From: Ensifer sp. IC3342
GTDB lineage: Bacteria > Pseudomonadota > Alphaproteobacteria > Rhizobiales > Rhizobiaceae
Direction: 5' to 3'
Assembly: GCF_020193655.1 (NCBI RefSeq)
Contig: NZ_JADYVE010000001.1
Location: 1,612,001-1,676,000 of the forward strand
Length of the DNA: 64,000 nt
Below the pieces are notes generated by a model. The model did no database searches. It was not told where the DNA came from and worked only from the letters and a program-made list of their open reading frames with translations. A program made the position numbers and the translations under genes. Positions 1 through 16,806 of the stretch are shown one piece after another; position 1 is the first letter of the stretch, and every line of letters begins with the position of its first letter.

Positions 1-2
1 AG

Positions 3-71
3 GGGGCGCTGCAATATCTACGGCACTACATTCGTCCGACGCCTTGGGTGGCCGAGCACTGGCGCGAATAA
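3..71 (+). CDS. C-terminal end of a gene cut by the window edge
   Basis: One frame stays open from base 3 to a TAA at 69-71 and gives 22 residues ending in WVAEHWRE. The Trp/His/Arg-rich composition looks like a true protein end rather than noise, but it is too short to name. It converges on the ELM1-family gene, so it would be the last gene of a plus-strand unit entering from the left. Confidence 0.35.
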   Translation, partial: GALQYLRHYIRPTPWVAEHWRE

Positions 72-86
72 GCATGCGGTGACGTC

Positions 87-1133
87 TTACGAGAAGTTGA
101 GCTGCGAACGGATTATCGAGGCGATGCGGCGCGTTTCATCGAGTGGCTCGTAGCTGTAGGGTTCGATCTTTCCTTCGAAGGGCCGGGTCAGTTGCAGAGT
201 TTCGTGCAGGTCCCGGTGATAGCGCTCGAACTTGTCCAGCCGCGGACCCACGACGGGGGACAAGTCAAGCGTAAAGACCGGTTTGCCCGTCGCCAGAGCC
301 TCGCAGGGCATAGTGATCGAGTCCTTTGCGATCACGAAGGCGTCGGCGGCGGCCATGTAGTCCAGATAGGGATTCTCGCTTCGTCTGTCCCACACGGTGA
401 TGCTTTCGCTGTCGAGTGCCGACAGAGCCTGCTGAGTGTGGTCTTCAGATCTGCGTGAGACCGAAACAACGATGCGCCAGTCCGCCTTCTCCAATTGCCC
501 GATAGCGCTCTTTATATTCTGGTGGGTTCTGTCGTCGTAAACATATGCGCCATTCGAGCCGCCGACGAAGACGGCGGCTATTGGGCGCCCGTCCGGTGAG
601 AACCGTCTGCGCGCGGCATCCCTAAGAGGCGCCAGCCGCGCCGAGGTAATCTGATGCGGTACTCCGACCATTGAATGATAGTTCGGCCGCTCGTTCAATT
701 CGTCGACCCAATCGTGACGAGAGACGAAAACGAGATCATATCCTTCGATGCGCGGCCGTTGGAGGTGCACGGCGAGGGGTTTGCCGCCATAGGCCGCCTT
801 TATGTCAAGGACGGCCGGTTCAGCCCGGAAACCGCAGGAGATTAGCAACTCGGGACGCTGCTCTTTTTTGCGAAAGAGTCTGGGTTCAAACAGTTTCCTC
901 AAGCCGCGGGCTCGACTGATCAACTTGACCACTGGTTCACGGTGAAACTCTTTTCCAACGCCAAGGCACTGCGTAAGCGTTCCCGCCTTGCTTTCTGCCA
1001 CCGCCCACACGCAGGTCGTGTTCGACGGGTTCATCGCTTTGTCGTCGTTGTTTGGCAAAACCCGAACTCCGATCTGACGCTTATTGCGCGTGCATTGCGT
1101 TGGCTTGGGATCACTGACCGAGATCGATCCCAT
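87..1133 (-). CDS. ELM1 (DUF1022) family protein
   Basis: This 348-residue product resembles the bacterial family annotated as mitochondrial fission ELM1, a GT-B-like fold group often found in rhizobial polysaccharide regions; its reaction is not established. Visible family marks are a VAESKAGTLTQ segment near the N-terminus (residue ~45), the FVGGSNGAY glycine loop in the middle, and a C-terminal KDSITMPCEALATGKPV segment that resembles a nucleotide-sugar-binding end. The long start overlaps the upstream GT92 gene by 23 bases. Met34 (base 1034) is an alternative start nearer the usual family start, but neither has a strong ribosome site. It lies directly downstream of the GT92 gene on the same strand, so the two are probably cotranscribed and act on the same glycan. 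The family call is fairly safe; the function is not. Confidence 0.75.
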   Translation of the reverse strand: MGSISVSDPKPTQCTRNKRQIGVRVLPNNDDKAMNPSNTTCVWAVAESKAGTLTQCLGVGKEFHREPVVKLISRARGLRKLFEPRLFRKKEQRPELLISCGFRAEPAVLDIKAAYGGKPLAVHLQRPRIEGYDLVFVSRHDWVDELNERPNYHSMVGVPHQITSARLAPLRDAARRRFSPDGRPIAAVFVGGSNGAYVYDDRTHQNIKSAIGQLEKADWRIVVSVSRRSEDHTQQALSALDSESITVWDRRSENPYLDYMAAADAFVIAKDSITMPCEALATGKPVFTLDLSPVVGPRLDKFERYHRDLHETLQLTRPFEGKIEPYSYEPLDETRRIASIIRSQLNFS

Positions 1134-2025
1134 TTTCGTCTATGAATTCGAGCATGCTGCGGTCCTCGACGACGTTGGTTTCGATATACTTGATAGTATT
1201 AGCGACCTTGTTTCGGTATTTCTCTGCAGATCCGTCGAAAGACCAGCCTCGGTCTGTCTTTTCCTTCAGCTCCTCGATCGACTTCGCATAATAGTGATTG
1301 AGCTGTATGAACTCCGCGGAGTAAAATTCGGCAGCCTTCCGCTTTTTCTTTGGTACCACTTTTCCCGCATCGTTTGCTGTTCTGTCGCCGTGGGAGCGTG
1401 TTTGGAAGTGATGGACGCCCACTTTCGTGATTTCGACCGGATCGACAATGCATTTGAAGTTACTTGCATCGAGGTTCTGCCGCATCGGATCGGAGACCCG
1501 CATTTTGTAATTGAGGCATACGGGCCCAGCTGGTCGCGAGACATGACCGCTGTGGCCGAACATGTGCCAGGGCAAGGAAATATTCGGAAACCCGCCTGCT
1601 CCTCGTAAGGCTTCCTTTAATGTTCTACCTTTTTTGGGAAGCAGAAATTCATCGACGTCGATAAACGCCATTCGATCGTACCTGCCGCCGAAGTTCAGGA
1701 TCGCATGGGCGAAGGCAATCGTCTGCCCGTTCAAAAACTCACCACTTTTTTCATCCCGCATGCGCATTTGCCAAGGCACGACAGTCAATTCCTGGGGCTT
1801 CAACGCCCGCTGAAGCACGTCGAGCGTGCCATCAGTCGAGCCGTCATCATAGACATGAAAATGTCGAACACCGACCGCTTGGTGAAAGCGCACCCACTCC
1901 TCGATGTAGCTAGCTTCGTTTTTCACGCAGGCGACAATCGCAATGCCGTGTCGGCTAAACTCTGCTGCCGGAGGCGTGATAGCAAGTTCTCTCGTAAGAT
2001 GCCGTTTAGCCTTCAATCCAAACAT
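1111..2025 (-). CDS. Glycosyltransferase family 92 protein
   Basis: The 304-residue product is a GT-A-type glycosyltransferase of the GT92 (DUF23) group, which moves a hexose onto a glycan acceptor, probably at the inner membrane. Motifs seen are CVKNEASYIEEWVRFH at the start of the domain (residues 33-48), YDDGSTDGT (residues 59-67) for nucleotide binding, and IDVDEFLLP (near residue 122) with the acidic metal-binding pair. The start at 2025 is preceded by a good AAGGGG ribosome site. It is the first gene of a two-gene minus-strand unit with the ELM1 family gene. The 230 bases upstream separate it from a divergent gene and must hold promoters for both sides. Acceptor and donor cannot be read from sequence. 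Confidence 0.85.
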   Translation of the reverse strand: MFGLKAKRHLTRELAITPPAAEFSRHGIAIVACVKNEASYIEEWVRFHQAVGVRHFHVYDDGSTDGTLDVLQRALKPQELTVVPWQMRMRDEKSGEFLNGQTIAFAHAILNFGGRYDRMAFIDVDEFLLPKKGRTLKEALRGAGGFPNISLPWHMFGHSGHVSRPAGPVCLNYKMRVSDPMRQNLDASNFKCIVDPVEITKVGVHHFQTRSHGDRTANDAGKVVPKKKRKAAEFYSAEFIQLNHYYAKSIEELKEKTDRGWSFDGSAEKYRNKVANTIKYIETNVVEDRSMLEFIDENGIDLGQ

Positions 2026-2263
2026 CTACGCCCCTTGGTTGCTAAACATGAAGTCGGCTCCTTATTCGTCGCGCGCTAAGTCGGCACGAAGCATACGGAC
2101 CTTCAGGGCTCATGAACATGCCTTTTGCCGACTTATCAAGCTTGCGTGCTTTGATTTGGAATACATCACCCTTTATAGAGGGAGCGAGGCAGCTTGGAAT
2201 CCAAGCCTCGGCAATCTGGAGAAGTCGCGCGCTGAAAGCACGCTAAGGTTGGGATGAGTGTGC

Positions 2264-3094
2264 ATGGACTTTCCCGCTTCCGTAACGACGGAGAATTTGA
2301 CGACAACGGAGCAATGGCGCGCTCTGTTTTCCGCTTTCTCACACATCGTCCTTGTCGCCAACAGCGACCAGGTTAACGTCAAGGAGCTTCAGGCCGAATA
2401 TCCGCGGACGGCTCTCTTTGTATTCTTCAACAAGGTCTACAAAATTCTCGATGAGCAATTTTCCGGTCGCTCTCTGCTGATATCACGCGCCCAGCCGAGA
2501 GGCGCCAATATTGTCTACCGGCAGGAGGTCGCTGACGTCGTCAAGCTGTTCTCGCCCCAGCAGTTCTTGGGTATCATGAACATCCGCTTGGCGGCGAGCG
2601 AGAGGTTGAATACAAGCTCGGATTATTTGGGGACGCCCACGGGACACTTGGATTTGACGGGCTTCTGCGCTGACTTCTACCCGCAGGCCAAAGTCCCCAC
2701 GAGCGGCTTCGCCATAGCCCTGTGGCTGGTGGACCAGGCACTTCCGGCCGAGATCGTTCTGGCGGGGTTCTCGGCAAAGCGCAGCGAAAAGTGGCGGGTG
2801 GTGGCTGTCCATGACTGGACCTTCGAGCAGGTCTTCTTGCGCCTCTTTGCAAGAGTGGGCAAGCTGACGATGCACGGTGGTATCGCGACAAACAGTTACA
2901 CATCGCTTGTTTCGCGTTTCCCGGAGTTGCCCGCCGCTGAAATCTCTTCGACGATTGCTGAAGTCTTGTCATCGCGACTGAGCCAGACCGATGCGCAAGT
3001 CGACAAGTTGATTTCTCTAACGAGCGTATTGCGGTCCATTGACGAATTATTACGCCGGCTGAAGCCGAAGTTTCTAAAGAAAACGAAGGCGTAG
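2264..3094 (+). CDS. GT42/DUF115-like protein A
   Basis: This 276-residue product is not confidently assignable. It has an N-terminal beta strand with VLVANSDQVN where the family has its glycine-rich nucleotide loop, and later PTSGFAIALWLV followed by EIVLAGFSA, then a HDW motif. The order (nucleotide loop, PTSG helix, hydrophobic strand ending in AGF) matches the three neighbours at 3135, 3895 and 7406 and, by memory, the CstI/CstII sialyltransferase (GT42) layout. It is the most divergent of the four because the loop lacks the usual G-S-x-P. GTG at 2258 is an alternative start; ATG 2264 sits better after GGGATGAG. It leads a plus-strand unit of three such genes. Possible role: transfer of a Kdo- or nonulosonate-like sugar. 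Confidence 0.5.
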   Translation: MDFPASVTTENLTTTEQWRALFSAFSHIVLVANSDQVNVKELQAEYPRTALFVFFNKVYKILDEQFSGRSLLISRAQPRGANIVYRQEVADVVKLFSPQQFLGIMNIRLAASERLNTSSDYLGTPTGHLDLTGFCADFYPQAKVPTSGFAIALWLVDQALPAEIVLAGFSAKRSEKWRVVAVHDWTFEQVFLRLFARVGKLTMHGGIATNSYTSLVSRFPELPAAEISSTIAEVLSSRLSQTDAQVDKLISLTSVLRSIDELLRRLKPKFLKKTKA

Positions 3095-3134
3095 TAGCGT
3101 CAAATAGCCGAGTATCGATTTCTGGTGAGGATAA

Positions 3135-3866
3135 ATGGGTTCATGGATCTCCGACGCGCGCAAGCGCATATACCGAAATCTGAAGTACCGTATAATTCGT
3201 CCGGATCCGCCGGCTGCCCCATTTCGATTCAATACCCCCGTTGTTGTCGTCGGGTCCGCTCCTATATCCCATAAGCCGGTCGGATTGGACGCGAGCTTCC
3301 GGATCATCACCGTGAACGGCTCGCAATCGGTCATCAGCAAGTGGGGCGTCGATGCGCCCGACATCACGATGATGATGTTCAACCAGGTGGAAGGATCCAC
3401 TGCGAACGCGCTTGAAGTCAGACGCGTGCTGAAGGGGCAGCGCACCGGGACGCTCTATGTCTTTCTCTGGCGAAAGGACGACCGCGCTCGGCTGGAGCAT
3501 GGTTTACGGGCGTTCGACTACAAATACGACCGGCTGGAAATCGTTGATCGATACGAGCGGATGGCGTTGCTGGACCGCGTCGCGAATTTGCGTTCCCTTG
3601 AGATGGACGCAGATTCCAAATGCTCGAATGGAATGAACGCCGTTCTGTTTGCGCTTTATAACGGAGCTCCCGCCGTCATCATTACTGGAATAAACCCGAA
3701 CTCAACCGGTCACGCTTACAACTCAAGGGGTTTGACACGTCTTCACGTTCACATGGACAAAGTCCTCGTTTCCAAGTTGATTAGTGAGGGTCGCCCGATC
3801 TTCACGGCGGATCCGCCGGTTTCGGAAGAGCTCGGCATTCCGTTGTGGACTGGCCCGAGCCGCTGA
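3135..3866 (+). CDS. GT42/DUF115-like protein B
   Basis: The 243-residue product shows VVVGSAPISHK near residue 36, an NGSQSV segment where family members read the acceptor, CSNGMNAVLFALYNG near residue 160, and VIITGINPNSTGHAY. This is the same motif order as the gene at 7406 (LGSAPSP, VTNGVAALCYG, VTLAGFSVTKMGHSY), so the two are clear paralogues. The layout resembles GT42 sialyltransferases and DUF115 proteins. No membrane segment or signal peptide is visible; a cytoplasmic or membrane-associated enzyme is likely. ATG 3135 follows GGTGAGGATAA. It is 40 bases behind gene A and 28 ahead of gene C, so the three probably form one transcript. The fold is a moderately strong inference, the donor sugar unknown. 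Confidence 0.55.
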   Translation: MGSWISDARKRIYRNLKYRIIRPDPPAAPFRFNTPVVVVGSAPISHKPVGLDASFRIITVNGSQSVISKWGVDAPDITMMMFNQVEGSTANALEVRRVLKGQRTGTLYVFLWRKDDRARLEHGLRAFDYKYDRLEIVDRYERMALLDRVANLRSLEMDADSKCSNGMNAVLFALYNGAPAVIITGINPNSTGHAYNSRGLTRLHVHMDKVLVSKLISEGRPIFTADPPVSEELGIPLWTGPSR

Positions 3867-3894
3867 AATTTCTTCGCCTGCGATAAGGAAATCA

Positions 3895-4800
3895 ATGCGT
3901 TCAAACCGTCCCTTTTCCCGTTCTTGCATCAAGATCGCCGTTCGCCTGCTACTAGGACGTTCTAGGGCACATGTGCAGGACTGGTTTCCTGGTCTCAAGC
4001 TCGAGCGTGCGACTGCAGATCGTGATGGCATGATCCAGTATCGGGGCGAGTTGGTGGGGCATCTCACGAGCCTCTCGCGCGCCTTGAAGGCAAGGCCATC
4101 GAGGGTGCTTATCGTCGGCTCCGGTCCTTCGATCGCGCAATGCGATCTCACCCGCGCAGATGAGTCTTCCTGCCTTCTCTTGAACGGCGCGTTGCATCTT
4201 TATCCCCGCGTAATAGCAAAGCCCTTGGCGGTAGCAATTGAAGACGAACGGTTCGTATGGAGACACTTCGATCTCATCAAGCGGATCCCGGCCGGATGCG
4301 TGTGTCTCCTGTCGGTGAGCGTCATAAGGGCGATCTGTGAGCTGGATAGCACATGGTTGCGAGACAAAACGATCGTGTTGATCGATAACTTACGAAAGCC
4401 ATATGGGCTGCCACGCCGAGACACCGTGGAACTGCGCAAGCTGTCCCATGTGAGGCTGAGCGAGGACGGCGACATCGGCTTTTCTGAAGACCCCTCTGCC
4501 GGCATCTTCCAAGCAGGCTCAGTGGCCGTTTCAGCCGCACAGTTTGCCGTTTCCTGGAGGCCTCGCTCGATCGGGTTCGTGGGGATCGACCTCAGCAATG
4601 CAGATGAGCCCAGGTATTACGAAACAACCGATAAAGCCTATTCGGGAATCGTCGCGGCCCAAAAGCGGATTGTCGACCATCTGGCAATGGCTCGGAGCAC
4701 AGCCGCTGAAAGCGGCATCGAGGTCGTAAATCACTCGCCTGTCTCGGCCCTCGTCGGGATGGGGTTTGGCTACGACGCCGCCTTTTCAAAAACTGAGTGA
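3895..4800 (+). CDS. GT42/DUF115-like protein C
   Basis: This 301-residue product carries the best nucleotide-loop motif of the group, VLIVGSGPSIAQCDLTR (residue ~69), followed by LLLNGALHLYP. Later come PSAGIFQAGSVAVSAAQFAV and SIGFVGIDLSN, matching the SGVYMC/IYLSGIDF layout of CstII as I remember it. The longer open frame from 3784 overlaps the previous gene; ATG 3895 follows AAGGAAATCA and clears it, so I chose that. It probably transfers a sugar during surface glycan assembly. It is last in the A-B-C run and is followed by a convergent GT8-like gene. Alternative reading: a DUF115 protein of unknown activity. Confidence 0.55.
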   Translation: MRSNRPFSRSCIKIAVRLLLGRSRAHVQDWFPGLKLERATADRDGMIQYRGELVGHLTSLSRALKARPSRVLIVGSGPSIAQCDLTRADESSCLLLNGALHLYPRVIAKPLAVAIEDERFVWRHFDLIKRIPAGCVCLLSVSVIRAICELDSTWLRDKTIVLIDNLRKPYGLPRRDTVELRKLSHVRLSEDGDIGFSEDPSAGIFQAGSVAVSAAQFAVSWRPRSIGFVGIDLSNADEPRYYETTDKAYSGIVAAQKRIVDHLAMARSTAAESGIEVVNHSPVSALVGMGFGYDAAFSKTE

Positions 4801-4913
4801 CGTTTTAGCTGGCATTGCGAGCTGAAGGCGCATCAGAGCACCGGCATCGGGGCGTTGGGCGGCCAGATTGTCTCCACCGCCCCGATGCAAATGGCTCAAT
4901 GGCTTTGCGCGGG

Positions 4914-5603
4914 TTAAGCCGAGCGCTGCGTCACATGAAGAACGCGATCACGTGCAGCGAACCATTCCTCGGCGTAGTCATCGTTCTTATACTCGTCGAA
5001 GTAAGGTCCGCCATCTGTGAAATGGACAAGCTTTGCATCCGGCGAATATTCGTACTCGTTGACGAGCCAGTTCCAGCTCGCTGGCAGCTCGCCGATGAGC
5101 TCGTCGGAATCCAGCCATTTGAACTGATGCAACTCCAGCCCAGTGGCAGTGTTGACGTAATCCAAGTCCAGCTTTCGGCACTTGGCGTTGTTGAACAGGA
5201 TCACGCTCGACCAGTTCTTCTTTTCGTACTTGGTTTGGACTTGCCCCAGGAACTTCGTTTCGACTTTCGGAACGTAGTTGTGTTTTACGCACATCGCCGC
5301 ATAGCGATCGTCTCTCAGCTCCCACAACTGAGCGATGTCCGTTCGCATCAGCATGTCGCAATCGACGAAAAGCGACCAACCCTCGTAGCCGCTCAGATAA
5401 GGCACGAGGAATCGCGAAAAGGAAAATTCGGTAGATTGGAGAGGATTCCGCTCGCGCGTAAAAATCCTCTCGACGTTATTCAAGGATATCGGCGTGAACG
5501 AGACCGGGATGGAGCTCTTTTCCAGAATACTTTGGCAAAGAACATGATAGGCAACGACTTCCTTGCTATCAAAGCCGATGTAAATATGAGCACTTTGCGT
5601 CAT
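4914..5603 (-). CDS. GT8-like glycosyltransferase
   Basis: The 229-residue product begins with IYIGFDSKEVVAYHVL (residues ~8-23), a start typical of GT-A enzymes related to GT8/LgtC-RfaJ. It has FVDCDMLMRTDI (residue ~80) with the DxD metal/nucleotide motif and a C-terminal HFTDGGPYF segment that is common in this group. It should move a hexose from a nucleotide sugar to a surface glycan. The start chosen is ATG 5603, four bases after a strong GGAGGTGTG; a GTG just before is possible. It stands alone on the minus strand between the GT42-like run and the ArnT-like gene. Confidence 0.75.
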   Translation of the reverse strand: MTQSAHIYIGFDSKEVVAYHVLCQSILEKSSIPVSFTPISLNNVERIFTRERNPLQSTEFSFSRFLVPYLSGYEGWSLFVDCDMLMRTDIAQLWELRDDRYAAMCVKHNYVPKVETKFLGQVQTKYEKKNWSSVILFNNAKCRKLDLDYVNTATGLELHQFKWLDSDELIGELPASWNWLVNEYEYSPDAKLVHFTDGGPYFDEYKNDDYAEEWFAARDRVLHVTQRSA

Positions 5604-5939
5604 CACACCTCCGATTATAGGTAGGCTTCAAAATGTCATGGGCGTGGCTTGTTCCTCTAAGCGGCGAAACGACTTGAACTGACTTTTGATTTGCGTCTCC
5701 ACCCGACACCCGGTTTAGCCAAAAAAGGCGGCGGCGTGAAGCCTGGGACAGTGGATAACGTTCATCTCGCCGACAACACCTCTTCCGTGTCTCATTGTCT
5801 CGTCCTGCCGATGAAGCAAAATTCTGTGCTTTGTAGTTCGTAGCCATAGGAGGGCGTCTGGCAAATTCCTTCAACTTCGCCTAGTAGCTTGTCGCTTGCC
5901 CGCGGTATTACCACCAGCATGGGACGATGGGGGAGAGGG
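5604..5939. other. Divergent intergenic region
   Basis: These 336 bases separate the GT8-like gene (minus) from the PMT/ArnT-like gene (plus). A GGAGGTGTG ribosome site for the minus gene is at its left edge. No convincing coding frame, RNA gene or repeat is visible; it presumably contains the two promoters. Confidence 0.5.
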
Positions 5940-7430
5940 ATGCGCAGTCTCTTGGCTCGAAGGCCGGATCTCTTATACGTTCTGATTGCCGGTTATTGCC
6001 TGCTGAGCATCGTCTTGAAGATTCTGCGGCCGGATTCGCTCGAGATCGACGAGTCCGAACAAGCTCTGCTCTCTCAATATCTGCTTCTCGGATACGGAGC
6101 CCAGCCACCCTTCTACAACTGGCTTCAATATGGAGTCGTGGCCCTATTTGGCGTCTCTGTCGCATCGCTGACTGTCGTAAAGACCGGACTTCTGTTCCTC
6201 TTCCTTCTATTCTACGGCTTTACCGCGCGTGTACTCGCGAGCAGCGAGTTCGCCCCGGCTGTGGCGGTGCTTGGCGTCCTGACGCTACCACCAGTCTTCC
6301 TTCTGTCGCAGCGCGACCTGTCCCACACCGTCGCAGCGCTATTTGCGGTCTCGCTCTTTCTTTATGCCTTTTTTCGAGCTCTAAAGAGACCGCCCCGGCT
6401 TGGCCGCTATTTGCTCGTCGGCGTTGCCGTAGGGCTCGGGGCGATTTCGAAATACAACTTCGTTATACTCCCCGTCGCGGCATTGCTTGCCATTTTGCCG
6501 GAAGCGATGCTGCGCAAACATTTGTTTGACTGGCGTGTACTCGCATCGGCTGCGGTTTGCGCGTTGATTGTGGCACCCCATGCCTTCTGGATCGTCAACA
6601 ATATTGGCCATGCCACTGGCGTCACTGTCGCTGAGATGAAGGAGGGAGCGGACAGTGCGCTGCTGCCGCACGCCATCCAGGGACTTGTTTCCCTGGCAGT
6701 TGCAACATTCAAGGGCGTCGCGCTGACTCTTGCCGTCTTCGGGTTGATCTTCTATGCGGACATCGGGAAGATCCTGCGCGCCGAAAGCCCATGGACGAGG
6801 GTCGTCGGCAGGATGCTTGTTGCCTGCTTCCTCATGGTAGCGGTTATCGTCGTCGCAATGGATGCGACCCACATTCGTCCGAAGTGGCTGGCGCTTTTTA
6901 CTGCGCTTCTCCCGCTTTATCTCACGCTAAAAATCGATGCCGCCGGTCTGGATCCTGCCCGGCGCCTTCCCGCGCTGCTTTCGACAGCGGGGGTCCTCTC
7001 TGTCGGCGTCATCCTGATGCTTTGGGCAAGGGTCTTCATCGGCCCAATGATCGGCGACTATTCCTTCGCGCACACGCCCTATAACGCTTTTGCCCGCGCT
7101 GTGAAGGCTGAGTCCGGCCCACCCCCCGTCGCCATTGTAGTCGATGACAGGATCGTAGCGGGTAACCTTAGGATACAGTTTCCAGACACCCCGATTATCC
7201 TGACTGGATTTTCTCAAGGGGCGGAAAAACGGCTTCCAGGACGAATTATGGCTGCTTGGTCGGCAGAGGGTGGTGGGCGAGAAGAGATTCCCCCTCGCAT
7301 TTCGGCCTTGCTGGAATCCATGTCGATCAGAATGGCCGATGCGAAAGCGACGATCGTGTCTGTTCCCTACAACGCAGGGCGCCCGGGCGACCTATACACA
7401 TTTGCCTATGTCTGGGCGGACTTCCGCTGA
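5940..7430 (+). CDS. ArnT/PMT-family (GT39/GT83-like) membrane glycosyltransferase
   Basis: This is a polytopic protein of about 496 residues with some ten hydrophobic segments. Near the N-terminus LEIDESEQALLSQY carries the acidic residues that these GT-C enzymes use in the first periplasmic loop, followed by PPFYNWLQYG, the usual PP-YxW element. Such enzymes take a sugar from a polyprenyl-phosphate donor and attach it to lipid A, core or another envelope acceptor on the periplasmic side. In-frame TTG 5889 and ATG 5919 are possible starts; ATG 5940 directly follows GGGGGAGAGGG and was chosen. The 3' end overlaps the convergent GT42-like gene by 25 bases. Confidence 0.8.
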   Translation: MRSLLARRPDLLYVLIAGYCLLSIVLKILRPDSLEIDESEQALLSQYLLLGYGAQPPFYNWLQYGVVALFGVSVASLTVVKTGLLFLFLLFYGFTARVLASSEFAPAVAVLGVLTLPPVFLLSQRDLSHTVAALFAVSLFLYAFFRALKRPPRLGRYLLVGVAVGLGAISKYNFVILPVAALLAILPEAMLRKHLFDWRVLASAAVCALIVAPHAFWIVNNIGHATGVTVAEMKEGADSALLPHAIQGLVSLAVATFKGVALTLAVFGLIFYADIGKILRAESPWTRVVGRMLVACFLMVAVIVVAMDATHIRPKWLALFTALLPLYLTLKIDAAGLDPARRLPALLSTAGVLSVGVILMLWARVFIGPMIGDYSFAHTPYNAFARAVKAESGPPPVAIVVDDRIVAGNLRIQFPDTPIILTGFSQGAEKRLPGRIMAAWSAEGGGREEIPPRISALLESMSIRMADAKATIVSVPYNAGRPGDLYTFAYVWADFR

Positions 7431-8143
7431 AGCTGGTCGAAGCCGATCAAGCCGTCCATGTTGGCGGCGATGTCGCTTCTATCGCGAACGAAAGGCAGGC
7501 CGATATGCTCAGAGAGCTCCAACTCGGTCGTAAAGACATCTCCTCGATCTCTCAAACGCGTCAGAACGAAGGTGTCTTCGGCGATCTGCCGCCGAATTTT
7601 CCCCTTGTCGTCGTAGGAATGGCCCATCTTGGTGACTGAGAACCCCGCGAGAGTCACAGACGGCACGCCCATAAAAAGTCCATAGCAGAGGGCGGCAACT
7701 CCGTTCGTCACCTTGCCCAACTCTCCAATGTTGGAGGGCAGTCCGCCGCTCACGACGTCGACAATTGCCTCGCGCTCATCTTTGGTGGCGCGCATCAAGC
7801 TCTTGTAACGCACGCGCGGCATTGAAAGAAGTTTCAGGTACATCACCCAAAGAGGCTTCGTATGGAGCCATAGAAGACCTCTCGTCCTTACATAGGGATG
7901 CTCTTCCCACGACTTCTTCCGCTTTCGGAACGTCAAATCGGCGGGCGGCAGACCAAGTGCATTGGCCGTCTTGCCCGAGTTATTAACGTCGACGCGTGCG
8001 CAATGTTCTATCAGGTCCGGTGGTATCGTGGGGGAGGGCGCGGAGCCGAGAATCAGCCATGGCTTATCGAGAATCCCGAGCCGTGAGAGCCAACGACGGT
8101 GTTTTTCCCGCAGAGTTTCAAGCGCGTCAGGTTCAATCGTCAT
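7406..8143 (-). CDS. GT42/DUF115-like protein D
   Basis: The 245-residue product is a clear paralogue of the protein at 3135: PWLILGSAPSPTIP near residue 30, VDVNNSGKTANALG, then VTNGVAALCYGLFMG and VTLAGFSVTKMGHSYDD. The order fits the GT42/DUF115 layout. The open frame extends upstream to 8272, but that leader is low quality; ATG 8143 lies after CGGAAC and gives the family-like start. It is transcribed alone, convergent with the ArnT-like gene and divergent from kpsF, with a mosaic repeat between. It may transfer an acidic sugar to the same glycan as proteins A to C. Confidence 0.55.
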   Translation of the reverse strand: MTIEPDALETLREKHRRWLSRLGILDKPWLILGSAPSPTIPPDLIEHCARVDVNNSGKTANALGLPPADLTFRKRKKSWEEHPYVRTRGLLWLHTKPLWVMYLKLLSMPRVRYKSLMRATKDEREAIVDVVSGGLPSNIGELGKVTNGVAALCYGLFMGVPSVTLAGFSVTKMGHSYDDKGKIRRQIAEDTFVLTRLRDRGDVFTTELELSEHIGLPFVRDRSDIAANMDGLIGFDQLQRKSAQT

Positions 8144-8281
8144 CGCGAGTTCCGTTGGCCAAGTATCGAGGCAAGATTGACTTAGGGGTACCATCTTATG
8201 TCTCGCACAAGCCTGGCCACGTGTCCATTCCGGCCGCCGGGTCTTTGTCCTCGGGCTGTGAGTAGTATTCAACTTCCCTAC

Positions 8282-8384
8282 TGCACGTTTCCTTAAATCG
8301 TACCCGATTTAGGGATAAAAACACCCAACAATTCAAAGTGTTACAGCGTCTTTTACGCGTCTGATAAGACACGCGGCGCTGTAG
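8282..8384 (+). repeat. Sinorhizobium-type palindromic mosaic element, copy 1
   Basis: The element starts with TGCACGTTTCCTTAAATCG, passes an imperfect hairpin and ends in the hairpin ACGCGTCTGATAAGACACGCG followed by GCGCTGTAG. The same arrangement recurs at 15951, 34406 and, inverted, at 32498. It fills most of the gap between the minus gene at 7406 and kpsF. Such elements (RIME-like) are known non-coding repeats of rhizobial chromosomes; they can form RNA hairpins. Confidence 0.8.
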
Positions 8385-8506
8385 TCTTTCTGTCGGTCAC
8401 GCGTCAGAAAGTGCTGGATATACTCGCAAGAACGCACAATTTAGCCATCTTGATTTGATTTCGAGGGCATCAACTCCAGCGTCCAATAGATTCGGGCAGT
8501 GTAGAA

Positions 8507-9496
8507 ATGGATATGTTTGTAGGCGACGCGATACTGGCGTCGATCAGTCGCACGATTGCCACTGCCGCTGACGGGATAGGAGCGCTGGCGGCCTGTTTTG
8601 AGGGTGATGCGTCCCTGCGCACCAGTTTCGTCGATGCCGTCGAACTGGTCGCCTCGAGGAGTGGCCGCGTCGTGGTCGCGGGCATAGGCAAGAGCGGGCA
8701 CATCGGTCGCAAGATCGCCGCAACGCTCGCTTCTACCGGCACGTCCGCCTATTTCGTGCATCCGACGGAAGCAAGTCACGGCGATCTCGGAATGATCACG
8801 GCGCAGGATTTGCTTATTCTGCTTTCATGGTCCGGTGAGACCGTCGAACTCGGGAACATGCTCACTTACGCCAAGCGCTTCAATGTTCCCGTGATTTCGG
8901 TCACCTCGAACGCCGACAGCATAATCGCGCGCAACTCCACGGTCGCGATTGTCCTGCCGAAAGTGGCGGAGGCATGCCCTCATGGGCTGGCCCCAACCAC
9001 GTCCGCGATGCTGCAGTTGGCGGTCGGGGACGCTCTCGCAATGGCCCTGCTTGAGCGGAGGGGTTTTTCGGCTCTGGACTTCAAGACGTTTCATCCGGGC
9101 GGCAAGCTCGGTTCGCAGTTGCTTCTTGCACACGAGCTGGCGCACTCGGGCGAGGCCGTACCACTGTTGCCCATTGGCAGTCCAATGAGCGAGGCGGTCA
9201 TCCAGATGTCTTCGAAGGGGTTTGGGGTCGTCGGCATCGTTGGTATCGACGGTGACCTTGTCGGGGTGATTACCGACGGAGATCTGCGGCGGCACATGTC
9301 GGAGAATCTTTTGCTCCTCACCGTTGAGACTGTGATGTCGCATGCCCCTCGGGTGATTACGGGTGGAATGCTGGCCAGTGCGGCAATGGAAATGATGCAA
9401 TCGCAAAAGATCACGGTGCTATTTCTGATCGATGATCTGCGTCGGCCATCGGGTATATTGCACGTGCACGATCTTCTGCGTGCCGGCGTTGCCTGA
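8507..9496 (+). CDS. kpsF: D-arabinose-5-phosphate isomerase (KpsF/GutQ family)
   Basis: The 329-residue enzyme interconverts ribulose-5-phosphate and arabinose-5-phosphate, the first step of CMP-Kdo synthesis. An SIS domain spans residues ~40-170, with VVAGIGKSGHIGRKIAATLASTG, the HPTEASHGDLGM active-site segment and SWSGET. Two CBS domains follow (residues ~210-325), and the length equals that of KdsD/KpsF. Rhizobia carry a housekeeping copy elsewhere, so a copy in a polysaccharide cluster suggests a capsule-specific Kdo or Kdo-like sugar, as in K-antigen loci. It is followed after 126 bases by the acyltransferase gene, probably in the same unit. Confidence 0.9.
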   Translation: MDMFVGDAILASISRTIATAADGIGALAACFEGDASLRTSFVDAVELVASRSGRVVVAGIGKSGHIGRKIAATLASTGTSAYFVHPTEASHGDLGMITAQDLLILLSWSGETVELGNMLTYAKRFNVPVISVTSNADSIIARNSTVAIVLPKVAEACPHGLAPTTSAMLQLAVGDALAMALLERRGFSALDFKTFHPGGKLGSQLLLAHELAHSGEAVPLLPIGSPMSEAVIQMSSKGFGVVGIVGIDGDLVGVITDGDLRRHMSENLLLLTVETVMSHAPRVITGGMLASAAMEMMQSQKITVLFLIDDLRRPSGILHVHDLLRAGVA

Positions 9497-9622
9497 GGAC
9501 AACTCAGCGCAGTCTCGAAGGTGCCCGGCCGATTGGATGGTCAACGAGCCGGTGTTCGAGAGAGGGCACTGTACTATTCTAAGGTGGAACGCAAATACCG
9601 CTCTGGCTTTCGGCGGTCGGTC

Positions 9623-11674
9623 ATGGAAATGGGGAGCAGCTTGGCAGTAGCCCACCACGACTTCGAATATCGACCGGACCTCGACGGTTTGCGAGCCGTG
9701 GCGATCTTGCCGGTGCTCCTCTTTCACGCAGGCTTCGGGTCGTTCTCGGGCGGATTCGTCGGTGTTGACGTCTTTTTTGTCCTGTCCGGATTTTTTATGG
9801 CGAGGATCATCCTCACCGACCTCGAGCGCGGCAGCTTCAGTTTTTTGGCATTCTACGTTCGGCGGATGAGACGCATCTTCCCGGCCCTGTTCGCGATGAT
9901 CGCTGTTTCGACGGTGGCGGCGTGGTTTTTGCTCATGCCGCAAGAGTTCCGTTACTTTGGCGATAGTGTCCAAGCCGCTGCCGTATTCACTTCGAACATT
10001 CTGTTCCGTAGCGAAAGCGGTTATTTTGATGTCGCCGCAGAGATGAAGCCATTGCTTCATACCTGGTCGCTGTCTGTCGAAGAGCAGTTCTACCTGATTT
10101 TCCCCGTCGCGGTTTTCCTTTGTTTCAAATTCGCACGCAGGCACATTTTTGCGATCGTGTTGGCAGCGGCGCTCCTGTCCTTCGTGGCAAGCACTTGGGG
10201 GGTCGCTCACGCTCCGGAAAAGACATTCTACTTGCTTCATTTTCGCATTTGGGAGTTGCTGGCCGGAGTCCTTGTTGCGATTGCTCCGCGCCCGGCTTAT
10301 ACCGACCGCGGGGCACAGGCACTGGCGGCCCTCGGACTGCTGGCAATATTCCTAGCGGTTTTTGCCTATACTCCCGACACGCCCTTTCCCGGTGCTTATG
10401 CCGCAGTGCCTTGCCTGGGTACGGCCCTTGTGATCCACGCGCATTGTCAAGGCGGGTTGATCGCGCGTTTTCTAAGTAGTCCCGTTTCTGTATTCATCGG
10501 ACGCATTTCATATTCCCTCTACCTCTGGCATTGGCCCATAATTGTGTTCTCTCGCCATGGCCTTGGCCATGAGCTGACAACCGGTTGGGCCCTGGCTGCC
10601 GTGGCGACATCTTTCGCGCTGGCCTACATTTCGTGGAGGTTCATCGAGCAGCCGGCGCGGTATGGCGGGCTGGTATCCTCGCGCGGCGCGATCGTTGGCC
10701 TGAGTGGCGCTGCGATTTCTTCCGCGGTCGTCTTCGGCGGAATCGTCAACGGTCTGCAAGGCATTCCCCAAAGGTTGCCCGAAGAGGCCCGCGCGCTTTA
10801 CGAAGCCACCTATGACGAAAGCCAATTCTCCTCAGAGAAGTGTTTCGCCGATTCAAATGGAGAAGGTCTGACACCGGCCCAGATAAGGAGAGGGAACCTT
10901 TGTAGGGTGGGCATCGAGACTGCAGGCGAGCCGCAGTTCCTTGTATGGGGAGATTCTCATGCCGCGGCCATCGCTCCTGCGATCGACGTTGCAGCGCGTC
11001 AAATGGGCATGTCGGGCATGTTCGTGGGGCGCGGATCGTGCCCGCCTTTGCCAAATACGGATTTCGCCCGTCCGGCAGCGGTCAAACGGTGTATCGACCA
11101 CAACGCCGCAGTGATGTCGCTGATCGAGCAGGAGAGGTTCGCCTTCGTTTTCATGGTTGGCTATTGGCCGAAGTACGTCCATCGGGCGGAACTTCCAGGT
11201 GAGGGCGTCTTTTTTGATCCTCGGGTCGAGCCAGCCCTGACAGATTGGTCAGCGCCGGTCAGGAAGGGTCTCAACACGACGCTGACTAAGCTCGCTCGGC
11301 AGGGAACAAAGGCGGTTCTGGTGATGGATGTGCCGGAGATGGGGCACGAGGTGCCTGAAGCCCTCGCACGAGCCGTTGTTTCGGGACGCTCGCTCGACAT
11401 AGCCCCTTCTCTTGAATACACGGAGGTGCGGCAAGCATTGGCTCGGCGGGTTTTGAAGGAAGCGGCAAAATCGAGCGGAGCTCTGGTTGTGGATCCGATG
11501 AGCGTGATCTGCGACGCCTCCAGGTGTCATGTCATGCGCGGGGGCACCGTTCTCTACAAGGATGGGGATCACCTGTCAGCGAAAGGTGCGGAAAGTCTCT
11601 CAGCACTGTTCCGTCCGGTGCTGAGCATAGTGCGAGAGGGCCCCCACTCTTTGATCTCTGAACCGAGATCTTGA
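9623..11674 (+). CDS. OafA/YrhL-type acyltransferase with SGNH domain
   Basis: The 683-residue product starts with the acyltransferase-3 signature YRPDLDGLRAVAILPVLLFHAG and FVGVDVFFVLSGF. It carries some ten membrane segments (to residue ~385) with SFLAFYVRRMRRIFPAL and WSLSVEEQFYL. The C-terminal half is a periplasmic SGNH esterase-like domain with VWGDSHAA (block I) and DGDHLSAKG (block V, Asp-His). This two-part layout is known from O-acetyltransferases that modify O-antigen, peptidoglycan or exopolysaccharide. ATG 9623 (or 9629) was chosen because the frame further upstream has no family match. It follows kpsF in the same direction, suggesting acetylation of the Kdo-linked glycan. Confidence 0.9.
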   Translation: MEMGSSLAVAHHDFEYRPDLDGLRAVAILPVLLFHAGFGSFSGGFVGVDVFFVLSGFFMARIILTDLERGSFSFLAFYVRRMRRIFPALFAMIAVSTVAAWFLLMPQEFRYFGDSVQAAAVFTSNILFRSESGYFDVAAEMKPLLHTWSLSVEEQFYLIFPVAVFLCFKFARRHIFAIVLAAALLSFVASTWGVAHAPEKTFYLLHFRIWELLAGVLVAIAPRPAYTDRGAQALAALGLLAIFLAVFAYTPDTPFPGAYAAVPCLGTALVIHAHCQGGLIARFLSSPVSVFIGRISYSLYLWHWPIIVFSRHGLGHELTTGWALAAVATSFALAYISWRFIEQPARYGGLVSSRGAIVGLSGAAISSAVVFGGIVNGLQGIPQRLPEEARALYEATYDESQFSSEKCFADSNGEGLTPAQIRRGNLCRVGIETAGEPQFLVWGDSHAAAIAPAIDVAARQMGMSGMFVGRGSCPPLPNTDFARPAAVKRCIDHNAAVMSLIEQERFAFVFMVGYWPKYVHRAELPGEGVFFDPRVEPALTDWSAPVRKGLNTTLTKLARQGTKAVLVMDVPEMGHEVPEALARAVVSGRSLDIAPSLEYTEVRQALARRVLKEAAKSSGALVVDPMSVICDASRCHVMRGGTVLYKDGDHLSAKGAESLSALFRPVLSIVREGPHSLISEPRS

Positions 11675-11855
11675 TCGTCCCTGCTTAAAGAAGAAACTGA
11701 AATGGTACTCGCGTGCAGGGTTGTCGTCTGATGGTCGACCGCGCGAGCCCTAAGAACTGATTGCACCGCCTCCATCAAGACTGCGAGTCTAAATTGCAAA
11801 CGATAAGCGCTGCTGTTAATCTGCCGGCAGAAGTGCAACCACCGGGGACGGAAGT

Positions 11856-12152
11856 TTGCATATCGACGATGATCGGCTGCGGGTCGCGACCCTCGAGTTT
11901 CTGGTAAGGATCCTTGTAGCCAGTAAGGTCAGGGACAACTCTTTTGCTGACCTGAAGCATGACGTTCTCAGTGCACTTGAACGTCTATCGCCGCAATGCT
12001 CCGCCAGCGACGTTGAGCTGGCCGAGATCAGAGCAAGGATGCATGCCGAGGCGGACGCAATTCTGAGATGGGCAGTAAGCGGGCAGACGAACTCGATTTC
12101 ACCGATTGAGGACAGGCCACTATCTGTTTCGCACTATCGCCAATGGCGCTAG
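11856..12152 (+). CDS. Small hypothetical protein
   Basis: The product has 98 residues from a TTG start preceded by GGAAG. It is hydrophilic and helical, with no signal peptide or membrane segment and no motif I recognise. The amino-acid mix (leucine/valine/acidic-rich helices, ALERLSPQ, ARMHAEADAILRWA) looks coding. It sits alone between the acyltransferase and pyruvyl transferase genes. Confidence 0.4.
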   Translation: MHIDDDRLRVATLEFLVRILVASKVRDNSFADLKHDVLSALERLSPQCSASDVELAEIRARMHAEADAILRWAVSGQTNSISPIEDRPLSVSHYRQWR

Positions 12153-12410
12153 GGTATTACTGCTTGAGCTCCCGCACATTTCGAACACTCTCAAAGGAAC
12201 TGCATACTGGCTCTGGAGAATGATCACTGCCGATCCCAGCTCACATGAACCTAATGGGACTCGAGTGCTGCGCTGCAATCTTGGAGCCACAGGCGGAGCT
12301 CGCGGAGCAGTGCTCGCCTATGAGCGGTAATTCATCAGCGGCTTTGCCGACTTTTCCCGCAGGCGCTCGTCATTTCAAAAAAAACCGACAGGTTGGCTTG
12401 ATTAGGAAAA

Positions 12411-13487
12411 ATGCACTTGAAGACTGCAGTTCTCATCAACGATACATCCACGAAAGCCCATCTAGGATGTCGAGTTGTTGTCAGTCAGATAGCCCGATTG
12501 GCGGCATCGGCAGGCATCCGGATCGCCGCCTCCGCCTCGGTTCATGCCGACTGGCGAGAGCATCAAGGCCTAATTGCCACTATGCGGGCTGCGGATATTG
12601 TGATCGTCAATGGGGAGGGAACTCTCCATGACGCCAGCAGGCAGGCCAAGGCTCTGGCTGAAGTCGGACCATTCTGCCGAGATATCGGTGTACCGAGCGT
12701 TCTTATAAACAGCGTCTTTGAACGAAACGACAGCGATATCGCAGCGGCCTGCCAGGCTTTCGATAGGATCTATGTCAGGGAGTCTAGTAGCGCGCAGGAA
12801 GCGCGAGAGGCCGGCCTGAGAGTTGAAGTCGTTCCAGACCTCACCTTGTCGAGTGAAGTCATGGGTGTTTTCCAATCGGCGCCGAGGGTATCCAAGATAG
12901 TCGTCACCGACAATGCGAACCGGATCGTCGGACAACGTGCGCTGGAAGAAGCCCTATTGAGGGAGAATGTCTCCTTTCTTCACCTCGACACATCGGAACC
13001 TAAGAACCCGTTTATGGGGAATGCGCTATCACCAGAATTCGTATTTATGAGCACGGGACGCGTAGTCGAGCCCCCTCCGCCTCTTCCAAGAAAGATCACA
13101 GCATTTCGAATATTTCGAAAATCATTGTTTAAACCGCAGATGCTCAGACGCATGAAGATGATTCATGAATTAAACGAGCCCCTCTCGTCCGCGCAGATAC
13201 TTTCGCGGATTGCCACTTCGCGAGGTGTCGTAGCTGGACGCTTCCACGCGGTGTGCATGTCGATGCTGTCAGATACGCCCTTTGCTGCGATGTCATCGAA
13301 TACGTCGAAAATGAAAGGGTTGTTGACCGACGCCGGAGTTGCACGGTTCCTGACCGACGATCCGAAAGCAGCCTTCCACGCGGTAGATGACTGGAAGGAA
13401 GCCGACAATTTTGCTGTTGCGGCTTACGTTCAAAAGGCACGGCGAGACGCGAAAGCGATGTTCGATGATATTGCAGGCCTGACGTAG
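12411..13487 (+). CDS. Polysaccharide pyruvyl transferase family protein
   Basis: The 358-residue product belongs to the PS_pyruv_trans family, which adds a pyruvate ketal from phosphoenolpyruvate to a sugar of a polysaccharide repeat (CsaB/ExoV-like). Visible features are NDTSTKAHLGCRVV near the start, VIVNGEGTLHD (residues ~62-72), the middle YVRESSSAQEA, and GVVAGRFHAVCMSML near residue 275 with the conserved GRFH motif. ATG 12411 is preceded by TTAGGAAAA. It lies between the acyltransferase and ABC exporter genes in the same direction. Confidence 0.85.
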   Translation: MHLKTAVLINDTSTKAHLGCRVVVSQIARLAASAGIRIAASASVHADWREHQGLIATMRAADIVIVNGEGTLHDASRQAKALAEVGPFCRDIGVPSVLINSVFERNDSDIAAACQAFDRIYVRESSSAQEAREAGLRVEVVPDLTLSSEVMGVFQSAPRVSKIVVTDNANRIVGQRALEEALLRENVSFLHLDTSEPKNPFMGNALSPEFVFMSTGRVVEPPPPLPRKITAFRIFRKSLFKPQMLRRMKMIHELNEPLSSAQILSRIATSRGVVAGRFHAVCMSMLSDTPFAAMSSNTSKMKGLLTDAGVARFLTDDPKAAFHAVDDWKEADNFAVAAYVQKARRDAKAMFDDIAGLT

Positions 13488-13500
13488 TCATCACACTCTA

Positions 13501-13949: not shown

Positions 13950-15779
13950 ATGGATGGTGGCAGGGACGGCTTTTTGAACGTCAAGGATCGAAAACAGCGC
14001 GAGGTCGATTCCGAAACGACCACTAGGATCCTAAAGCGCGTCATTACCGAAAACGGCCGCGACCATATCCGCGGCTACGCTTTTGCCGTTGCCTGCCTGA
14101 TGGTGGTGGCTGCGACGACGGGCTTCATCGCCTGGATCAGTGAAACCGTGATCAACGAAGCTTTCGCTAACAGGCGCGGCGACACCGTTCTTCTTATCTG
14201 CTTTTCGATTTTTGCTGCCTTCGTGCTGAGAGGCTTGGCGACTTACGGGCAGGCCGTCACTTTATCAAAAATCGGCAACAGTATTGTCGCACGCTACAAA
14301 CGCCGGCTTTATGTGCACCTAATGGCGCTGAGCGTTGGCTATTTCCAGGAGAAGCGCTCGGCACAGCTCACCGCCAAGATCAACCAAAACGTTGCCGGCA
14401 TCCGCGACGTGCTCAACATGACAGTCACGTCGATTGCTCGCGATCTCCTGACTTTGATCGGTCTCGTCGGCGTCATGATCAGCAAGGACTGGCTGCTGTC
14501 GCTTATCATCTTTCTCGTGGCCCCGCCGCTGCTCCTCGGGCTTCGCTACATTTCCAAGCGGCTGCGTCTGGCGACGCGCGAAGCAGTCGAGGCCAACAGC
14601 AACGTGCTAGGCGCGGTGCAGGAAACCATTCAAGGCATTTCCATCGTCAAAGCCTTCACGATGGAGGATGAGTTGCGCCGCAAGGTCGAGGGGATCATCG
14701 GGCGCGCGGAAAGTCGCGCCAACCGCATCGCGCGTTTGAGCGAGCGGACGGCGCCATTAACGGAAACCTTCGCAGGGCTGGCAATCTCGAGCGTGCTTGC
14801 CTATGCCGCTCTCCGCACGATCTACAGCAACGTGGCCCCGGGTGTCTTGTTTGCCTTTGTCACCGCACTTCTCATGGCCTACGATCCTGCCCGGCGCCTG
14901 GCTCGCCTGCAGCTGTCGCTGGAGCGTGCCGCCGTCAACGCCCGCATGCTTTATGAAATTCTGGACACGGTTCCGCATCAGCGAGACCTACCCGGCGCCA
15001 AGGCACTGACCTTCAGCAATGCGACCGTCGAGTTTCGTGACGTGCGGTTTTCCTATGGCAATGGCGAGGAGATCCTGAAGGGGGTCAGCTTCCAGGCGGA
15101 AGGTGGCAAGACGACCGCGCTCGTCGGCCCGTCTGGCGCCGGCAAGTCGACGATCATCAGCCTCATTCCCCGCTTCTACGATCCGCTGTCGGGGGCGATC
15201 CTGATCGACGGGCAAGACATAGCAACCGTTACCAAGCAGTCTCTGCGCAGCGGACTCGCCTATGTCTCGCAACAGGCTTACCTCTTCGAAGGTTCAATCC
15301 GCGACAACATCCGCTACGGCCGACCGGAAGCGACAGACGCGGAAGTCGAAGAAGCGGCGCGACTTGCCTATGCGCATGATTTCATCCTCGCGCAGCCACA
15401 GGGCTACGATACGCCCGTCGGCGAACAAGGCATGACTCTTTCCGGCGGCCAGCGCCAGCGCCTGTCGATCGCCCGTGCGCTCCTCCGCAACGCGCCCATT
15501 CTGCTTTTGGACGAAGCTACCTCGGCACTTGATACCGAGTCGGAAGCGGCCGTCCAGAAGGCACTCGACCAAGCGATGAGCGGCCGCACCGTCATCGTCA
15601 TCGCCCACCGGCTTTCCACCGTTGTCAACGCTGACAAGATCGTCGTGATGAAGGAGGGCATGGTCGTAGAGGAGGGGACGCACGAGGAACTCGCTTACCG
15701 TCCGGGCGGTCTTTACGCTCGCCTCCACAATTTACAAGGTAGTGCTTTGGAATTGACCGTGAGCGCCGATGTCACTTAG
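13950..15779 (+). CDS. ABC exporter, fused membrane and ATPase domains (MsbA-like)
   Basis: The 609-residue half-transporter works as a homodimer in the inner membrane. Six membrane segments lie in residues ~45-320. The nucleotide-binding domain has Walker A GPSGAGKST (residue ~393), Q-loop VSQQAYLF, signature LSGGQRQR (~497), Walker B ILLLDEATSALD (~517) and the AHRLST switch. This is the MsbA/LipidA-exporter type. Position inside a polysaccharide region suggests it flips a lipid-linked glycan or lipid A-like molecule, but MsbA-type proteins also export drugs and peptides. The next gene is a sulfotransferase after a mosaic repeat. Confidence 0.9.
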   Translation: MDGGRDGFLNVKDRKQREVDSETTTRILKRVITENGRDHIRGYAFAVACLMVVAATTGFIAWISETVINEAFANRRGDTVLLICFSIFAAFVLRGLATYGQAVTLSKIGNSIVARYKRRLYVHLMALSVGYFQEKRSAQLTAKINQNVAGIRDVLNMTVTSIARDLLTLIGLVGVMISKDWLLSLIIFLVAPPLLLGLRYISKRLRLATREAVEANSNVLGAVQETIQGISIVKAFTMEDELRRKVEGIIGRAESRANRIARLSERTAPLTETFAGLAISSVLAYAALRTIYSNVAPGVLFAFVTALLMAYDPARRLARLQLSLERAAVNARMLYEILDTVPHQRDLPGAKALTFSNATVEFRDVRFSYGNGEEILKGVSFQAEGGKTTALVGPSGAGKSTIISLIPRFYDPLSGAILIDGQDIATVTKQSLRSGLAYVSQQAYLFEGSIRDNIRYGRPEATDAEVEEAARLAYAHDFILAQPQGYDTPVGEQGMTLSGGQRQRLSIARALLRNAPILLLDEATSALDTESEAAVQKALDQAMSGRTVIVIAHRLSTVVNADKIVVMKEGMVVEEGTHEELAYRPGGLYARLHNLQGSALELTVSADVT

Positions 15780-16050: not shown

Positions 16051-16065
16051 GGAGTTGGCCAGGCA

Positions 16066-16806
16066 ATGATCATATCCCATCGGCACAAATTCATTTTCAT
16101 CCACGTACCGAAGACCGCCGGCAGCACAATTTCCGCTTATCTTGCTCGCGAATTTGGGCCCAGGGACCTGCAACTCGGGTCCTGGAGAGATGCACTCGGT
16201 AATGGAGCGAATGCCAATCGGCTAGCCCTGATCGCCATCTTCTGCCATCTCTCTCCGCTCAAGATCGCGAAAACGCTCGTCCGCAATGGCAAAGTCGATT
16301 CATTGGCCGGTGCTGCTCTCAGCCGGCGCTTTGCAGGCAAGCTCGCGGATCATTCAGGCGCAAGCGAAATCGAGGCCTTCGATCCTTCTGCCTGGAAACA
16401 ATATTTTAAATTCTGCTTCGTGCGGAATCCGTTCGAGCGCGCCGTTTCTCTTTACAACTGGCACTACAGGAAATCGGAAGCGCGACCGAGTTTCTCCCAA
16501 ATGCTTCGCTTGATCGAAGAGGGCGCCGCCGAGAGGGAGCATATCGACTGGAAATCCTGGCAGCTTTACACGAAGAACGACGAGATCGTTGTGGATTTCG
16601 TGGGCCGGCAGGAGCGCCTCTCGGATGATCTATGCATCATATGCGACAGACTCGGTTTGCCCTTTGACGATCGCTTTCTGGTCAGAGCGAAGGCGAGCCC
16701 AACGAGACCCGATATTCGCAGCTACTATAAGCCGGGCGATCGTGAATGCATTGAACGGCTTTTCGGCCCGGAGATCGAGCATTTTAAATACCGTTTTCCC
16801 GATTAG
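16066..16806 (+). CDS. Carbohydrate sulfotransferase family 2 protein
   Basis: The 246-residue cytoplasmic enzyme probably moves sulfate from PAPS to a sugar. HVPKTAGST (residues ~11-19) is the 5'-phosphosulfate loop and FCFVRNPFERAVSLYNW (residue ~123) the 3'-phosphate-binding segment, both as in the Sulfotransfer_2 family. The His and Lys of the first motif include the usual catalytic residues. Start codon 16066 follows AAGGAG. In Sinorhizobium, sulfation of LPS and K-antigen is established and uses other sulfotransferases; this gene would be an added one at the end of the polysaccharide cluster. Confidence 0.85.
   Translation: MIISHRHKFIFIHVPKTAGSTISAYLAREFGPRDLQLGSWRDALGNGANANRLALIAIFCHLSPLKIAKTLVRNGKVDSLAGAALSRRFAGKLADHSGASEIEAFDPSAWKQYFKFCFVRNPFERAVSLYNWHYRKSEARPSFSQMLRLIEEGAAEREHIDWKSWQLYTKNDEIVVDFVGRQERLSDDLCIICDRLGLPFDDRFLVRAKASPTRPDIRSYYKPGDRECIERLFGPEIEHFKYRFPD

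Follow-up and report, generated by a model that had tools for sequence, protein, structure and literature searches.

Four divergent sialyltransferase-like proteins in a rhizobial surface-glycan cluster as probable Kdo transferases

Which sugar might be handled by four divergent sialyltransferase-like proteins encoded in a genome where no nonulosonate synthase (NeuB) is found? The question is raised by a glycan gene cluster of Ensifer sp. IC3342 that lies at the start of a 64,000-nucleotide stretch (hereafter the window; positions 1,612,001 to 1,676,000 of contig NZ_JADYVE010000001.1, assembly GCF_020193655.1). The contig (C27, 1.72 Mb) belongs to a 7.4-Mb genome whose assembly is rated 100% complete, in 115 contigs. 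A reading made from the sequence alone had grouped the four proteins as relatives of glycosyltransferase family 42 (GT42) and DUF115, adding Kdo (3-deoxy-D-manno-octulosonic acid) or another nonulosonate to a capsule. All four, here named A, B, C and D (Table 1), are intact open frames at the positions given by that reading; its observation is confirmed and its interpretation partly supported. We favour, with modest confidence, the view that A–D are cytoplasmic glycosyltransferases of the GT42/GT29/MptE (DUF115) superfamily, most likely users of cytidine monophosphate (CMP)-β-Kdo, that serve the synthesis of a surface glycan. The set is probably best described as Kdo transferases belonging to unclassified families of that superfamily.

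Structure prediction and fold search, proposed as a check in the sequence-only reading, were run on A and D, and both models match the sialyltransferase superfamily, with strong support for D and moderate support for A. The D model (predicted local distance difference test, pLDDT, 92.9; predicted template modelling score, pTM, 0.90) has CstII of Campylobacter jejuni as its first Foldseek match (E 4.1e-5, probability 1.00, template modelling (TM) score 0.44). It aligns with Cst-I/CstII at Z 12.6 over 185–190 residues (3.9–4.1 Å) and with the GT29 enzyme ST6GALNAC2 at Z 12.3, MptE and Maf chains being matched as well. B had rightly been called a paralogue of D (profile–profile E 8.7e-29 over 222 columns), and a GT42 fold is predicted for it by way of this homology. 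A joint B+D profile finds CstII as its best match in the Protein Data Bank (PDB; E 8.8e-4), with the T-S-G helix and the G-I strand aligned and a Tyr present in 67 of 68 B/D rows (Tyr177 in D) falling on CstII Tyr162. The family differs from CstII/Cst-I in that the Tyr156 position is mostly Ser, Thr or Asn and identity in structural alignments is 11–14%. Pfam offered nothing for D and, for B, a single SufE match at E 0.22 that is probably due to chance; the B+D profile matched one PF06002-passing protein over a short stretch (E 7e-4, probability 26%), and a phage kinship of D was rejected, a phage collection yielding no match at E ≤ 0.01.

For A, the fold is predicted at the level of the superfamily and more weakly. 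Its model (pLDDT 83.8, pTM 0.78) has human ST6GALNAC2 as first Foldseek match (E 4e-3, TM-score 0.32) and reaches Z 10.1 with ST6GALNAC2 and 9.8 with Cst-I, so that a GT29 fold is predicted for A as for D; in a second comparison the first 18 rows are sialyltransferases (GT29, GT42), Maf, MptE and SteA (Z 10.2–8.6), followed by thiamin pyrophosphokinases. A is tied to the fold by this model rather than by sequence, because its sequence profile yields chance matches only against the PDB. It has no Pfam match in the window scan and none that is meaningful among 32 A-type proteins, its profile comparison with B is insignificant, and neither A nor B gave anything significant against the PF06002-passing protein; against the joint B+D profile, A aligns with a probability of 74% over the T-S-G helix and the next strand. 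The alignment of A with its homologues begins at the ATG at 2264 (M3 invariant), the start given in the sequence-only reading; an alternative GTG start lies at 2258. Elsewhere on the same contig, near 393–394 kb (L172:8294-9106), there is a paralogue of A with 29% identity, approximately 5.5 kb from two genes that, judged by eye, look like a counterpart of the GT39-type gene of the cluster and a GT2-like gene.

Profiles relate C to WaaZ and to the MptE-like family PF01973, which we take to be the former DUF115. C matches PF01973 at E 7e-4 (19.9 bits against a cut-off of 34.6) and the NCBIfam model of WaaZ (TIGR04437) at E 3.7e-9 (36.3 bits against an equivalog cut-off of 200). At E ≤ 0.1, all 10 C-type members match WaaZ (best 3e-12) and nine match the MptE-like profile (best 4.5e-6). 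WaaZ, presumably CAZy GT73, is the enterobacterial KdoIII transferase of the lipopolysaccharide (LPS) core, and C differs from it in lineage and gene setting as well as in score; GT73 has been described as ‘bacterial KDO transferases’, for which a variant fold is predicted. The loop of C aligns with that of the PF06002-passing protein over a short stretch (E 7e-5, probability 63%). Matches in PHROGs are weak and include a sialyltransferase family at E 0.1; those of the C profile in the PDB are at chance level, and profile comparisons are insignificant with A and B and weak with D or B+D.

The GT42/DUF115 layout claimed for the four proteins is therefore borne out by the D model, less firmly by that of A, and for C by profiles, while curated cut-offs are not reached. 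PF06002 (GT42, CST-I) and the GT29 profile are both missing from the Pfam matches at E ≤ 0.1 of 68 B/D-, 32 A- and 10 C-type members, PF06002 has no match in the Ensifer genome at E ≤ 1e-5, and PF01973, unmatched by A, B and D, has none above its cut-off there, C falling below it. The likeness to MptE and Maf consists of the A and D models and the C profile match; that to GT29 consists of the two models, the proteins here being bacterial.

We searched a family sample of 199 genomes and a class sample of 385, scoring only a few candidates per genome (up to six in one search of the class sample), so that absence there is no proof. In the family sample the B and D queries matched 31 genomes each and the C query 10 (E ≤ 0.001), and the A query 40 (E ≤ 0.01); in the class sample A or C was matched only in the Ensifer genome itself at E ≤ 0.001. 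A-, B- or D-like sequences also occur on two or three Paracoccus plasmids. A- and B/D-type genes co-occur in 20 family genomes (odds ratio 13, p 2e-9, kinship ignored). A search with the D profile gave 53 loci, a sampling anchored on D in which some loci end at contig ends; we extracted A from 38, B from 17 and C from 11, and saw a GT8-like gene in 42, an ELM1-type gene in 33 and kpsF in six. No extracted row was dropped from alignments A1, A2 and A3; A4 omits three D-type rows of the first set (two whose match reads past a stop, one cut at a locus end), A5 comprises 35 of the 38 extracted A rows plus the window's own, and A6 takes 55 of the 69 D-type and 11 of the 17 B-type rows plus the window's own.

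These alignments show how far the motif order attributed to the four proteins holds. The nucleotide loop is GSGPS in C and GSAP in B and D, as described, and VANS instead in A; the helix and strand motifs read SNG...ITGIN in B and TNG...LAGFS in D, with variants in A (TSG...LAGFS) and C (GS...FVGID). For CstII, we take the nucleotide-site and catalytic residues to be the loop Asn, N31, Y156/Y162 and H188. In A, both N35 and S36 of the loop are invariant (32/32 and 36/36 aligned rows), as are N58, G150, G170, H185, W187 and E190. Candidate counterparts of N31 are the invariant N58 of A, N61 of B and N97 of C; the N54 column of D holds Asn in 54 and Lys in 14 of the 68 B/D rows. The suggestion that A is the most worn-down member did not hold, and a degenerate copy was ruled out, because its ratio of nonsynonymous to synonymous substitution rates (dN/dS) against Sinorhizobium meliloti 1021 is 0.075. 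The ratios for B, C and D are 0.074, 0.133 and 0.157, and A is third lowest in a range of 0.060–0.157 over the 12 matched of 13 tested cluster genes.

B and D may form a functional pair. In a tree of the 68 B/D rows, whose bootstrap is not settled and in which two long branches meet, 12 rows fall in a B clade, 14 in a second-copy clade (Aurantimonadaceae, Mesorhizobium) and 42 in a D clade. The column of D Gln186 is Gln in all 42 D-clade rows and His in all 26 outside it. Counted over all extracted rows, 34 of the 53 loci hold both kinds, 30 of them on clean frames since four rely on a row past a stop; in two loci with His only, a D match is present and its frame was not extracted. If the His of these clades corresponds to the GT42 base (His188 of CstII), B would have an altered partner in D, a reading that we offer as a lead.

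The same cluster is carried by pSymB of S. meliloti 1021 at about 586–603 kb, and 39 plasmid records each cover at least 80% of window positions 1–16,900 at a single place; those listed, 30 in number, all come from S. meliloti and S. kummerowiae. At the 1021 locus, A, B and C have 92%, 91% and 87% identity. Gene order suggests that A is 20803, and so perhaps kdsB2, and that B and C correspond to SMb20804 and SMb20805, counting back from the ABC transporter taken as SMb20813, a gene described as an msbA homologue in an excerpt of PMC10945364. CP140937 locus tags bear out this ten-step count (the GT39-type gene is unlisted there), and its labels, ‘membrane-anchored protein’ for B and ‘cytidylyltransferase’ for A, fit the mapping. 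An assumption that SMb numbers run linearly along pSymB was dropped once the annotation of a region had been read. An excerpt of PMC5539429 lists rkpA, kdsB2, smb20804 and smb20805 among genes affecting the capsular polysaccharide (KPS) of strain 1021, crediting the list to Muller 2009, and reports a transposon-sequencing screen in which mutating those genes raised the competitive index with the nodule peptide NCR247. It was the only open-licence full text found under these gene names, and the excerpt presents them as capsule-affecting genes with neither fold nor mechanism.

In the mechanism that we infer, each of A–D would act catalytically in the cytoplasm, taking CMP-β-Kdo rather than a CMP-nonulosonate as donor and, with inversion as is usual for sialyltransferases, forming α-linked Kdo or a similar octulosonate. 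The acceptor would be the surface glycan assembled by the cluster's GT8-like, GT92, ELM1-type and GT39-type transferases, which the ABC exporter would then export and which may be decorated with acyl, pyruvyl and sulfate groups. Kdo synthesis is nearly universal among Gram-negative bacteria. The sequence-only reading had seen kpsF and no sialic acid synthesis genes: NeuB was not found in the Ensifer genome at E ≤ 1e-5, and the cluster includes kpsF, whose product we take to be the arabinose 5-phosphate isomerase that supplies the Kdo precursor. CMP-Kdo is the likelier donor because NeuB was not found there and is lacking in 38 of the 51 sampled genomes that carry A- or B/D-type genes; the recurrence of A in D-anchored loci is a point in favour of the account as a whole. 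Precedents come from excerpts of two sources, one suggesting that the plant GT29 protein RCKT1 (RCKT1/MGP2) is an inverting CMP-β-Kdo transferase (PMC11288761), the other describing a Clostridium Maf able to attach Kdo to flagellin (PMC11339370).

Several observations weigh against this proposal. None of A–D passes a curated profile cut-off, and the TM-score of D to CstII is only 0.44; for A, no Foldseek match reaches an E of 0.001 and the highest Z, 10, only modestly exceeds the 7–8 typical of models with no clear match. The D clade lacks the His of the B clade, kpsF lies near D in only six of the 53 loci, and NeuB occurs in 10 of 31 B/D-type and eight of 40 A-type carriers, where a nonulosonate donor is possible. 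The KPS of strain 1021 is a β-(2-7)-linked Kdo homopolymer according to the excerpt of PMC5539429, and separate PF05159 (capsule synthesis, KpsC/KpsS-type) genes lie elsewhere in the Ensifer genome. Since inversion on CMP-β-Kdo would give an α linkage, A–D may not be capsule polymerases, and the β polymer may owe its linkage to the KpsC/KpsS-type enzymes.

This mismatch of α and β is the main argument for a different role, in which A–D would modify the outer core of LPS, or some other glycolipid, instead of the capsule, adding α-Kdo branches as WaaZ does, while the ABC exporter and the ELM1/GtrOC1-type transferase would belong to core assembly and the capsule effects of mutants would be indirect. 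The resemblance of C to WaaZ, the ELM1/GtrOC1 annotation, the likeness of the transporter to MsbA (if it is SMb20813) and the location of the PF05159 genes outside the cluster all suit such a role, and the wording of the PMC5539429 excerpt, which ties kdsB2, smb20804 and smb20805 to KPS, speaks against it; we regard it as a serious possibility, though a less probable one than the favoured account.

That A–D are instead nonulosonate transferases (for sialic, pseudaminic or legionaminic acid), like the classical members of GT42, GT29 and Maf, seems improbable to us. The nearest solved folds are largely sialyltransferases, and 13 of the 51 carrier genomes have NeuB; against this stand the failure to find NeuB in the Ensifer assembly, the 38 carriers in which it is lacking, and the lack of significant enrichment over the 41 of 199 family genomes that have it (Fisher p 0.32 for all carriers, 1.0 for A-type and 0.09 for B/D-type, with none of 10 C-type carriers positive; kinship ignored). 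Least credible of all, and rejected here, is that A is a CMP-Kdo synthetase (KdsB2): this is how CP140937 and further records of S. meliloti label its orthologue (‘3-deoxy-manno-octulosonate cytidylyltransferase’), and kdsB2 is the gene name in the PMC5539429 excerpt, but the label appears wrong, backed by neither profile nor fold, because the KdsB nucleotidyltransferase profile PF02348 fails to match A or a single one of the 32 A-type sequences aligned, the genome has an unambiguous member (153 bits) elsewhere with A absent from the five places listed, and the A model matches the sialyltransferase/MptE superfamily.

A wider version of the Kdo-transferase account is speculative, and we think it unlikely to hold in all its parts: rhizobia and their relatives would have derived a range of Kdo (octulosonate) transferases from the sialyltransferase fold, among them at least two glycosyltransferase families so far unclassified (A-type and B/D-type), with KdsB2 itself a transferase and a His/Gln pair made of a His-clade B (or the second copy of Aurantimonadaceae and Mesorhizobium) and a Gln-clade D devoid of the presumed catalytic base. 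Were the proposal true, genes that affect the capsule of a model symbiont would gain a mechanism; their orthologues are presently given names such as ‘membrane-anchored protein’ or, probably wrongly, ‘cytidylyltransferase’, and in the NCR247 screen KPS genes altered competitiveness. It would also show a use of the sialyltransferase fold for Kdo in bacteria that have no sialic-acid pathway, a use suggested for plants too, and would open two unclassified families to simple assays.

Table 1. Features of the glycan cluster, with positions in the window and the basis of each assignment.
Feature	Position	Strand	Basis
ELM1/GtrOC1-type putative glycosyltransferase	87..1133	-	Pfam, orthologue annotation
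GT92 glycosyltransferase	1111..2025	-	Pfam, orthologue annotation
Protein A, predicted sialyltransferase/MptE-superfamily fold, probably kdsB2 of 1021	2264..3094	+	profiles, model, orthologue annotation
Protein B, GT42-like, His clade, putative SMb20804	3135..3866	+	homology to D, tree
Protein C, WaaZ-like putative Kdo transferase, putative SMb20805	3895..4800	+	sub-cut-off profiles
GT8-like glycosyltransferase, below Pfam cut-off	4914..5606	-	Pfam, neighbourhood
PMT_2 (GT39-type) membrane glycosyltransferase	5889..7430	+	Pfam
Protein D, GT42-like paralogue of B, Gln clade	7406..8143	-	model, profiles, tree
kpsF, KpsF/GutQ sugar-phosphate isomerase family	8507..9496	+	orthologue annotation
Membrane acyltransferase, possible decoration	9521..11674	+	open frame, orthologue annotation
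Polysaccharide pyruvyl transferase, possible decoration	12411..13487	+	Pfam
ABC transporter, MsbA homologue if SMb20813 (putative)	13950..15779	+	orthologue annotation
Sulfotransferase, possible decoration	16066..16806	+	Pfam, orthologue annotation

Among the neighbouring genes, the GT8-like gene shows the highest conservation of those tested, with 95.6% identity in S. meliloti 1021 and 75–80% in Aurantimonas, Jiella and related A-holding loci, where A has 41–47% and D 44–54%. For the pyruvyl transferase, the 1021 sequence retrieved around the cluster gives no match, and in CP140937 a pyruvyl transferase gene occupies the equivalent place on the opposite strand, which suggests an exchange of the decoration gene. 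A second gene that looks kpsF-like by eye (L173:9711-10721, near 935 kb of C27) adjoins a PF05159 gene and rkp-1-like genes. Inspection of the rest of the window showed two frames 11 kb apart (28154–29050 and 39761–40654) that are near-identical over approximately their first 137 residues, after which the latter diverges as if frameshifted, and, at 53811–56292, a probable second pyruvyl-transferase-like gene followed by one for an FrhB-like iron–sulfur protein.

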